This document shows positions 59,426 to 61,108 of a stretch of DNA of 64,000 nucleotides, one piece after another. The position numbers and the translations under genes are program-made. The notes below the pieces were generated by a model. That model was not told the DNA's origin and did not search any database. It was given only the letters and a program-made list of their open reading frames with translations. Every line of letters begins with the position of its first letter. The first letter of the stretch is position 1. Source of the DNA: Alienimonas californiensis (GTDB lineage Bacteria > Planctomycetota > Planctomycetia > Planctomycetales > Planctomycetaceae); assembly GCF_007743815.1 (NCBI RefSeq), contig NZ_CP036265.1:3490823-3554822 (forward strand), in the 5' to 3' direction.

Positions 59426-60613
59426 GTGTCTGTCGAGACCCTGCGTTCCAGCACCCGCAAAGATCTGGCCGCGATGGCCAAGGAGCACCAAGTCAGCGGC
59501 TGGCACGGGATGAGGAAAGAGGAACTGATCGAGGCGCTGATGGACGTATTCCGCACCTCCGCCCGAAATCGTTTGCCGGTCAAGAAATCAGGCTCCGCCG
59601 CCTCCGCGGACGTCGCCCGGACCTCGCCCAAGCCGCCCGCCTCCGCGGGTCGCGGTCCCGCCGCCGCTCCGGCGCCGTCCGCGGCGGATTCCTCGAACCC
59701 GCGGGGGGCGACCGCCTCCTCCGGGGGCACCTGCGGCTCCCGGATGGCGAAGCCCGCCCCGGCGGCGATGCACGACCCGATCAAGGACCCGCGGAAGGAC
59801 ATCTCCACCGTCGGCAGCGGGACCCCGGCGACGGAGGAACTCGACGCCGTCGCTCACGACCCGCAGTGGATTCACGTCCGCTGGGTGCTGAAGCGCTGCA
59901 CCGTGCAGCGGGCCGCCGCCGGCCTCGGCAGCGACTGGCACCGGGCCAAGCCGGTGCTCCGCCTGATGAGGGTTCACACCCACGAAACGAAAAGCACCAG
60001 TGAAACGGTCCTCGCCGACGTGCCCATCCACGGCGAGACCGATCACTGGTTCCTGCCCGTCGAGGAATCGCCGGCGACCTTCCGCGTACAGATCGGCTTC
60101 CTGGCCGAGAGCGGCGCCTTCTTCCCGCTGGCGAAAAGCCGGCGGGTGACGACCCCGCGGCCGGGCTCCAAGGCGGCCGAGCGGGTGCAGTTCGCTCGCA
60201 CCGGCGGGCTGGGCCCGCAGGTCTCCGCCGCCCCGACGGACCGCGGCCTGGGCGCCCCCAGCCGGCCGGCGTCGGTTGATCCGATGTTCGAGAAGTTCAA
60301 GTCGCTGCGGGCCGACTACGCCGGCGCCGCCTACGGCGTGGGCGAGGACGGCTCCGCCCGGCCGTTCACGGTCGAGACCGAGCTGCTGATCCGCGGCACC
60401 GCCGATCCGGACGCCCACGTCTCCCTCGGCGGCGACGCCGTGCGGGTCGGCCCGGACGGCCGCTTCGCCGTGAAGATGCGGCTGGGTGACGGCCGGCACG
60501 TCATCCCGGCGGTCTGCGTCTCCCCGGACCGCACCACGGAGCAGACGGTCGCCCTCGGCATCGCCCGCCAGAAGAAGGTGATGGAGCCCAAGCCCGCCGC
60601 CGTCGGCGTCTGA
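59426..60613 (+). CDS. Rho-N/SAP-like and DUF4912 domain protein
   Basis: The GTG at 59426 has GAGGA eight bases upstream; the product is 395 residues. Residues 1-45 form a Rho N-terminal (SAP-like) helical module (STRKDLAAMAKEHQVSGWHGMRKEELIEAL). A Pro/Ala/Ser-rich linker of about 80 residues follows, then a DUF4912 domain (DPQWIHVRWVL, LRLMRVHTHETKSTSETVLADVPIHGETDHWFLPV, YRVQIGFLAESGAFFPLAKS-like) at about 145-235. The C-terminal 85 residues resemble a small beta domain (VETELLIRGTADPDAHVSLGG). The Rho-N part suggests nucleic acid binding. DUF4912 has no known activity. It lies about 100 bases before a structured RNA gene. Confidence 0.85.
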   Translation: MSVETLRSSTRKDLAAMAKEHQVSGWHGMRKEELIEALMDVFRTSARNRLPVKKSGSAASADVARTSPKPPASAGRGPAAAPAPSAADSSNPRGATASSGGTCGSRMAKPAPAAMHDPIKDPRKDISTVGSGTPATEELDAVAHDPQWIHVRWVLKRCTVQRAAAGLGSDWHRAKPVLRLMRVHTHETKSTSETVLADVPIHGETDHWFLPVEESPATFRVQIGFLAESGAFFPLAKSRRVTTPRPGSKAAERVQFARTGGLGPQVSAAPTDRGLGAPSRPASVDPMFEKFKSLRADYAGAAYGVGEDGSARPFTVETELLIRGTADPDAHVSLGGDAVRVGPDGRFAVKMRLGDGRHVIPAVCVSPDRTTEQTVALGIARQKKVMEPKPAAVGV

Positions 60614-60715
60614 ATGGGCCGGGAAGAACGGATGGGGAATGAGGAGTGACGAAAGTGATCCCCCTGGGATTCTCGTCCTTCGGCATTCCTCATCCGACAT
60701 TCTCCGGAACTCGCG

Positions 60716-60744
60716 TTGGGTCCGGCGGCGGTCTGCGGTAAGCT
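60716..60744 (+). promoter_or_regulatory. Sigma70-like promoter for the structured RNA
   Basis: TTGGGT at 60716-60721 and TAAGCT at 60739-60744 are separated by 17 bases. A start seven bases downstream (60751) would coincide with the 5' arm of the closing stem of the RNA. The match to TTGACA/TATAAT is partial (three of six at each box), so the call depends on agreement with the RNA fold. Confidence 0.45.
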
Positions 60745-60750
60745 GCGTGT

Positions 60751-60950
60751 GATCTCCCGCGTGCCAGGTCGGTTCCTTTTGCCGACCCTACAGGTACTGA
60801 CAGAGGGAGCCTCGAGTCCCCGGCCGCGCGTATAGCCGCCCTTGCTTCCCTAGGAGGCTCGGCAGCGGATCACGCAACCCGGGGCCGCGGCGCCCACGTG
60901 GTTTCCACGGGTCAGTGCACTAGGCCCGACCAGCCGCGGGGGGTCTTTTT
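60751..60950 (+). ncRNA. Structured small RNA, 6S RNA-like architecture
   Basis: The ends pair: GATCTCCCGCG at 60751-60761 with CGCGGGGGGTC at 60935-60945 (11 pairs, two G-U), followed by seven T. Further in, GGTCGG (60767-60772) pairs with CCGACC (60926-60931), GTACTGAC (60794-60801) with GTCAGTGC (60911-60918), and GAGCCTC (60807-60813) with GAGGCTC (60854-60860). The result is a rod of about 195 nt with internal bulges, as in 6S RNA, which binds RNA polymerase. GGTCGG can also pair locally with CCGACC at 60782-60787, a possible switch. No SRP, tmRNA or RNase P signature motif is seen. Assignment to 6S is inference from shape and length. Confidence 0.55.
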
Positions 60951-60966
60951 TTATGCGCCTCACGAA

Positions 60967-61002
60967 ACACGCCGGGGATCGGCCGCTCCCCGGCGTGTTT
61001 TT
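60967..61002 (+). terminator. Strong rho-independent terminator
   Basis: ACACGCCGGGGA at 60967-60978 pairs perfectly with TCCCCGGCGTGT at 60987-60998 over an 8-base loop and is followed by TTTTT. It lies 16 bases after the T-run of the structured RNA and probably stops both that transcript and readthrough from the DUF4912 gene. An ORF that starts at 60953 and crosses this stem was rejected. Confidence 0.88.
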
Positions 61003-61108
61003 CGTTCGTGAGAGGGAGGCGACCGTCGGGTCGGGGGATTGCGATGCGTCGCCCGTCCCTCTCCCGAGACTCCCGAAGACGCTCCTCCGCGACGACGCCT
61101 ACGAAGAG

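Follow-up and report, generated by a model that had tools for sequence, protein, structure and literature searches.

A very probable 6S RNA gene in Alienimonas, with a predicted bubble-collapse route to polymerase release

6S RNA, a global regulator of the bacterial polymerase, is a small RNA that mimics an open promoter; in a bacterium that has stopped growing, it keeps RNA polymerase parked. Here we ask whether a structured, GC-rich locus of Alienimonas californiensis encodes such an RNA and, if so, by what refolding the RNA might let its polymerase go. On comparative sequence grounds we conclude, with a probability of about 0.95, that 60748-60949 (+) is the 6S RNA gene of Alienimonas (Planctomycetaceae). 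The initial annotation had read the locus as 6S-like, and that reading is borne out by its match to the Rfam family RF00013, by a lineage model from which the window was left out, by covariation, and by the placement of a promoter across the family. By analogy with known systems, we further infer expression of the RNA, its binding to polymerase, the start of a product RNA (pRNA) and release. The features of the locus are as follows, where ‘the window’ is the whole 64-kb stretch of DNA that was analysed and the alignments A1 and A3 and the model R2 are as defined below.

59426-60613 (+): upstream neighbour gene, with Rho_N (PF07498) and DUF4912 (PF16258) domains
60716-60721 (+): -35-like TTGGGT, with a 17-nt spacer to TAAGCT, following the family pattern
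60739-60744 (+): -10-like TAAGCT, 3 nt ahead of the modelled 6S body; predicted start near 60751
60748-60949 (+): 6S RNA body; RF00013 35.5 bits over the full model, leave-out model R2 85.9 bits
60751-60761 (+): 5' strand of the closing stem P1, partner 60935-60945; in A3, both-side changes in 7 of the 9 pairs of helix 1
60767-60772 (+): GGTCGG; in the free ensemble its partner is the distal 60926-60931 with a probability of about 0.97 and the local 60782-60787 with one of about 0.03
60778-60791 (+): presumed template of a 14-nt pRNA, start opposite C60791; predicted pRNA 5'-GUAGGGUC...
60784-60788 (+): 5' strand of P2, GACCC, partner GGGTC at 60909-60913; part of the presumed pRNA template; 95.8% of P2 cells paired in A3
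60789-60804 (+): central bubble, 5' side, from the RF00013 alignment and the A1 structure
60794-60801 (+): 5' strand of the predicted bubble-collapse helix, which excludes P2; duplex -13.2 kcal/mol, equalled by 0 of 300 bubble shuffles
60805-60811 (+): 5' strand of P3, partner 60889-60895; in A3, both-side changes in 5 of the 7 pairs of helix 5
60896-60908 (+): central bubble, 3' side, with a small local hairpin GTGG-TTT-CCAC, from folding
60911-60918 (+): 3' strand of the predicted bubble-collapse helix, partner 60794-60801
60935-60952 (+): 3' strand of P1, then the T-run 60946-60952, a terminator-like end, from the letters and the fold
60959-61012 (+): separate strong hairpin downstream of the T-run, -34.5 kcal/mol (60955-61012), absent from a generic terminator scan

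The architecture first described for this stretch stands up to a letter-by-letter check: the closing stem 60751-60761/60935-60945 has 11 pairs (as folding also confirms), the T-run lies at 60946-60952, the rod 60751-60945 measures 195 nt, and GGTCGG at 60767-60772 has both a distal CCGACC (60926-60931) and a local copy (60782-60787). The whole has the form of a 6S rod, of about 180-200 nt with a closing stem, internal loop, P2, central bubble, P3 and apical arm, and the transcript is likely to run from about 60751 to 60952. As RNA, 60750-60952 folds to -104.8 kcal/mol (z -4.1; equalled by 0 of 200 dinucleotide shuffles); the opposite strand also folds strongly (z -3.2; 0 of 200). Because a long rod folds well on both strands, folding alone does not fix the direction of the gene, which is set by the promoter, the T-run and the RF00013 match.

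In a lax scan of 501 bases (60600-61100), RF00013 (6S) gave a sub-threshold but full-length match, aligning to 60748-60949 (+) over model positions 1-187 of 187 with 35.5 bits (E = 1.2e-5). This is 10.9 bits under the gathering score of 46.4 bits, which is an annotation threshold and not a biological trait. At gathering score the 64-kb window holds no Rfam family at all, and the locus would probably be missed by routine annotation, since a genome-wide RF00013 search of the same genome (G000) yields no match at E <= 10. SRP RNA, tmRNA and RNase P were rejected as identities, as none of the three gave a hit at E <= 10 in 60600-61100 and the window holds no tmRNA; the initial annotation had named a clear match to a different family as grounds for giving up the 6S reading, and the only bacterial family at E <= 10 in that interval is 6S itself. 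Ten other matches from the lax scan (eight microRNA models, one snoRNA and one lncRNA), all of them confined to 60615-60712 and 60948-61015, two stretches of plain hairpin, were far below their gathering scores and were set aside. A search of plasmid DNA with the locus returned short matches only, covering at most 13% of the query.

The nearest relative by DNA is a locus of a congener (L002, on G001:C3, taken as Alienimonas chondri), 84% identical over query positions 13-259 and carrying at the equivalent place an RF00013 match of 44.1 bits, also under the gathering score. To avoid circularity, 40 family relatives, with the window and the congener both kept out, went into a lineage model (R2); 37 of the 40 exceed the RF00013 gathering score. 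R2 aligns to the window locus from end to end (model 1-198 of 198) with 85.9 bits, E = 1.7e-25 over 76,587 bases, and across the 5.48-Mb genome the locus is its sole match at E <= 10 (E = 1.2e-23). Two further loci, L003 and L004, which were first found by their DNA similarity to the window and lie outside R2, score 113.3 and 95.3 with it. For the window, only the R2 scores are independent, because a second lineage model (R1) and the alignments A1, A3 and A4 all include it.

Set beside the RF00013 model (SsrS), the window locus agrees in length, end-to-end alignment, central-bubble rod, the position of P2 beside the template and the T-rich 3' end, but differs in being GC-rich (68% GC within the matched stretch) and in having an extra helix, GGTCGG/CCGACC, where the model has an internal loop. 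The overall fold and the bubble are likewise those of the E. coli 6S RNA.

Do the helices covary among relatives, as a conserved RNA should? Alignment A1 (MAFFT) holds 42 of 53 family sequences, near-copies having been removed. RNAalifold found 28 pairs in it and missed P2; a 40-pair structure was therefore written by hand from inspected stacks and tested by slides and shuffles. In A1, 94.5% of cells are paired and both-side changes occur in 26 of the 40 pairs, against 10.7 in shuffles and 9-13 in slid structures. In A3, which comprises 99 of the 151 family matches of R2, drawn from 115 family loci (16 of the 115 left out as near-copies, some judged by genus with no measured identity; 9 further R2 loci lie outside the 115), the count rises to 32 of 40 (18.7; 12-19), with at least two such pairs in each of the eight helices, and in A4, 59 sequences from many families of the class, it is 29 of 40 (15.3; 11-16). 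One P2 pair in A4 occurs as C-G in 25 sequences, G-C in 15 and A-U in 12, and is unpaired in seven. The slid and shuffled controls outweigh the raw percentages, because A3 and A4 were fitted to the model structure; the helices covary by this measure in all three sets. The window itself departs from standard pairing at three of the 40 model pairs.

These comparisons bear directly on whether the rod could have arisen by chance folding in GC-rich intergenic DNA, or as a bidirectional terminator there. The well-folding reverse strand, the 68% GC and the second strong hairpin just downstream would all suit such an origin, but none of 500 shuffles of A1, A3 or A4 reaches any of five covariation measures, and the leave-out model finds one place only in 5.48 Mb and one match each in 151 of 170 family genomes; we regard this explanation as having a negligible chance of being right. 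It is also very improbable, if somewhat less so, that the RNA has the 6S shape but a different partner, as in Ms1-type RNAs of Actinobacteria; Ms1 is structurally related to 6S and binds the polymerase core (PMC9130861). Shape alone cannot tell the two apart, but the end-to-end match is to 6S, with no other bacterial family listed at E <= 10 in 60600-61100, P2 and the bubble are placed as in template-type 6S RNAs, and GACCCTAC is strongly conserved in the family at the position of the template.

The template and its start at C60791 are presumed from that conserved GACCCTAC and from the pRNA and start described for B. subtilis 6S-1 (PMC12005410, PMC8876501). There the template was derived from the pRNA 5'-GUUCGGUC..., starting at nt 40, a C, and the two RNAs (bsrA and the window's) share the arrangement GACC-N3-C with the start, presumed in the case of the window, at C. 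The predicted pRNA, 5'-GUAGGG, whose start is placed by position, would begin with a purine and carry GG at positions 4/5 and 5/6; GG at 4/5 or 5/6 is called conserved in PMC8414754.

The start at 60751 predicted in the initial annotation fits the placement of TTGGGT-17-TAAGCT. These elements are a weak match to the promoter consensus, and a generic scan of 60600-61100 reported no promoter-like and no terminator-like site, its terminator part accepting loops of 3-8 only. We consider the promoter credible because 93 of the 99 relatives share the pattern, TTGNNN-(15-18)-TANNNT within 80 nt upstream, with a spacer of 17 in 89 of the 93; in mononucleotide shuffles, 5.0 of 99 have it on average and 14 at most. 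The congener has TTGGTG-17-TAGAAT in the same layout, 5 nt ahead of its 6S body. The gap between the -10 element and the body is 20-34 nt in 83 of the 93 and under 10 nt in eight, among them the window and L002, which are for this reason without a leader. Of the 84 leaders that are 20 nt or longer, 68 have a hairpin between promoter and body at p <= 0.05 (e.g. L042, L057 and L071). At the other end, the hairpin 60959-61012 is a possible back-up terminator.

Synthesising these observations with what is described for other 6S RNAs, we propose the following model. From the promoter at 60716-60744, a rod of about 195-202 nt would be made and ended by its own closing stem and T-run; its bubble (60789-60804/60896-60908) would, by analogy, mimic an open promoter such that holoenzyme is bound and kept off DNA in slow growth. 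On the return of nucleotides, polymerase would copy the 5' bubble strand leftward from C60791, making a pRNA 5'-GUAGGGUCGG..., and this synthesis would open P2 (60784-60788/60909-60913). The freed 3' strand of P2 could then pair with the 5' side of the bubble (60794-60801/60911-60918, 8 to 10 pairs), generating a ‘collapse’ helix that closes the bubble and releases the enzyme. Once the pRNA is lost, the local hairpin 60767-60772/60782-60787 could keep the template closed. Two modes of refolding are described in PMC8876501: E. coli 6S uses a 9-bp hairpin in the 3' bubble, and B. subtilis 6S-1 a collapse helix joining the 3' P2 strand to the 5' bubble, a mode given for Aquifex too (PMC4227106). 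The window's 6S resembles B. subtilis 6S-1 in both its small 3' bubble hairpin in the free state and its predicted 5' bubble/3' P2 helix.

We somewhat favour release through the collapse helix 60794-60801/60911-60918, on the strength of modelling. Its duplex is equalled by none of 300 shuffles in L002 and L004 also, and has p 0.003 in L003; folding the whole RNA with this helix in place costs 1.6 kcal/mol over the minimum, which is within folding error. When 9, 13 or 14 template bases are masked in the fold as a mimic of bound pRNA, the helix forms and the distal GGTCGG pairing persists. The compensatory support, seen by eye, amounts to one change on both sides: at 60798/60914, L004 has C-G in place of U-A, a substitution that could also lengthen P2 there. 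In several A3 rows (L195, L076 and L211 among them), the 5' bubble holds a second copy of (G)ACCC past the template; it could pair with the same GGGU(C) strand and offer a simple route to a collapse helix.

The initial annotation had suggested a different switch, in which GGTCGG exchanges its distal CCGACC for the local one, and the main release could be imagined to work in this way, with the closing arm pulled apart. The local hairpin itself exists: at -12.3 kcal/mol it is equalled by none of 400 shuffles, it is kept in L002 (-12.1 kcal/mol; 0 of 400), whose distal partner, CCGCCC, has by eye one mismatch to GGTCGG, and together with the collapse helix it lies 1.9 kcal/mol above the minimum; a local hairpin that is also strong, though not the same one, occurs in L004 (G013; -9.7, p 0.03). 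It is not, however, a family-wide feature, not being found in L003 and reaching p <= 0.05 in only 6 of the 99 relatives, about the level of chance, and a family-wide role for it was dropped: the hairpin is real in the genus and no device of the family. Nor can it form with pRNA bound, because its 3' half is the presumed template, and with 9-14 template bases masked it is the distal pairing that stays and the collapse helix that appears. An exchange of GGTCGG partners as the main release step thus strikes us as improbable, and the bubble helix 60794-60801/60911-60918 is, as far as the modelling goes, the better-supported alternative pairing.

Between relatives, the predicted mode of refolding appears to vary. 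Among the 99, at p <= 0.05, the collapse helix is favoured in 29, the E. coli-like 3' bubble hairpin in 22 (the window not being one of them), both in none and neither in 48; a rerun gave 30, 23, 0 and 46 (Fisher p 7e-5, kinship ignored). In a set of 44 sequences, 30 of the free folds have the template as partner of the 3' strand of P2; under a 14-nt mask that strand moves to the 5' bubble in 19, to the 3' bubble in 15 and elsewhere or nowhere in 10. On a tree of the 6S RNAs, made by a quick method with the bubble columns excluded and with 45 of its 96 inner branches left open, 99% support unites the window with L002, L003 and L004, all four of them collapse-type; the two labels need six changes by parsimony on this weakly supported tree, of which the well-supported branches force one. 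We tentatively speculate that the 6S RNA of Planctomycetaceae has switched several times between the two known release modes, and that Alienimonas has gained, as a third element, a hairpin to shut the template once the pRNA has gone; we hold this combined scenario to be somewhat less likely than its opposite. The family would be one where two release mechanisms could be compared between near relatives.

The genes around the locus were compared by tblastn on 73 loci of at least 2 kb (flanks 1.5-2 kb, shorter at contig ends). A RarA-like AAA ATPase lies downstream of 6S, in the same direction, at 41 of 55 family loci and 2 of 18 others, and a homologue of the Rho_N-DUF4912 gene lies upstream, on the same strand, at 8 of the 55 (window, L002, L003 and L004 included) and 1 of the 18. 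L003 and L004 have the order Rho_N/DUF4912 gene, 6S RNA, rarA-like gene; the window and L002 have the upstream neighbour only. RarA is reported to adjoin 6S in lactic acid bacteria and at B. subtilis 6S-1 (PMC8414754); unlike the latter, the window's 6S has no adjoining rarA, and the best RarA match in its genome is far away (C1:2547125-2547568). The congener is like the window in its leaderless promoter, local hairpin, predicted collapse helix and Rho_N-DUF4912 neighbour, and differs in the distal partner. Between the Rho_N-DUF4912 gene and the 6S promoter sits a long imperfect inverted repeat (60615-60711; -51.4 kcal/mol over 60612-60714), perhaps the terminator of that gene.

That planctomycete 6S RNAs are poorly described, as the initial annotation remarked, is fair for the literature searched: in the portions of the papers retrieved, presence is addressed only by PMC5673643, which reports absence. 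Its authors found no 6S gene in Thermogutta terrifontis and, for the lack of 6S in Pirellula staleyi and Rhodopirellula baltica, refer to Wehner et al. 2014. In the retrieved part of PMC8567305, 6S RNA appears solely as a target of RNase Rbn; PMC2864571 places the details of its added 6S RNAs in Additional File 1, which may hold an earlier notice of a planctomycete 6S; and no further papers on presence in planctomycetes were among the matches listed.

6S RNA, which PMC5673643 reports as missing, is yet found here across much of the class and family. Of the 297 genomes of the class, 182 have an RF00013 match at E <= 0.1, with 128 above the gathering score, and R1 matches 232 at E <= 0.01. R2 matches 151 of 170 family genomes, with one match each (124 of the 130 of good quality), and has no match in the other 19. 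A class-wide model (R3) matches 114 of 294 genomes of the phylum at E <= 0.001. When R3 was applied to 23 genomes, 22 of them preselected as missed by R1 or R2 (11 of these 22 belonging to family f5), 19 were without a match at E <= 0.1. Genomes without such a match include G040, G049, G054, G057, G064, G068, G083, G086, G105, G112 and G118 of f5, along with G027, G026 and G312. The genomes just named, listed as 96-99% complete, are possible true losses; 6S is not absent from f5 overall, because G072, G176, G210 and G283 of that family match R1. For budding planctomycetes, the finding provides a testable stationary-phase switch.

A candidate was also found in G045, which is probably Thermogutta terrifontis, at C1:768874-769080 (-) (L251:1501-1707). 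It has no Rfam match at E <= 0.1; R3, which was built without G045, scores it at 40.9 bits (E = 1.4e-7). The candidate carries TTGCCG-17-TAGGAT upstream, 52 nt ahead of its body, and a T-run at its end.
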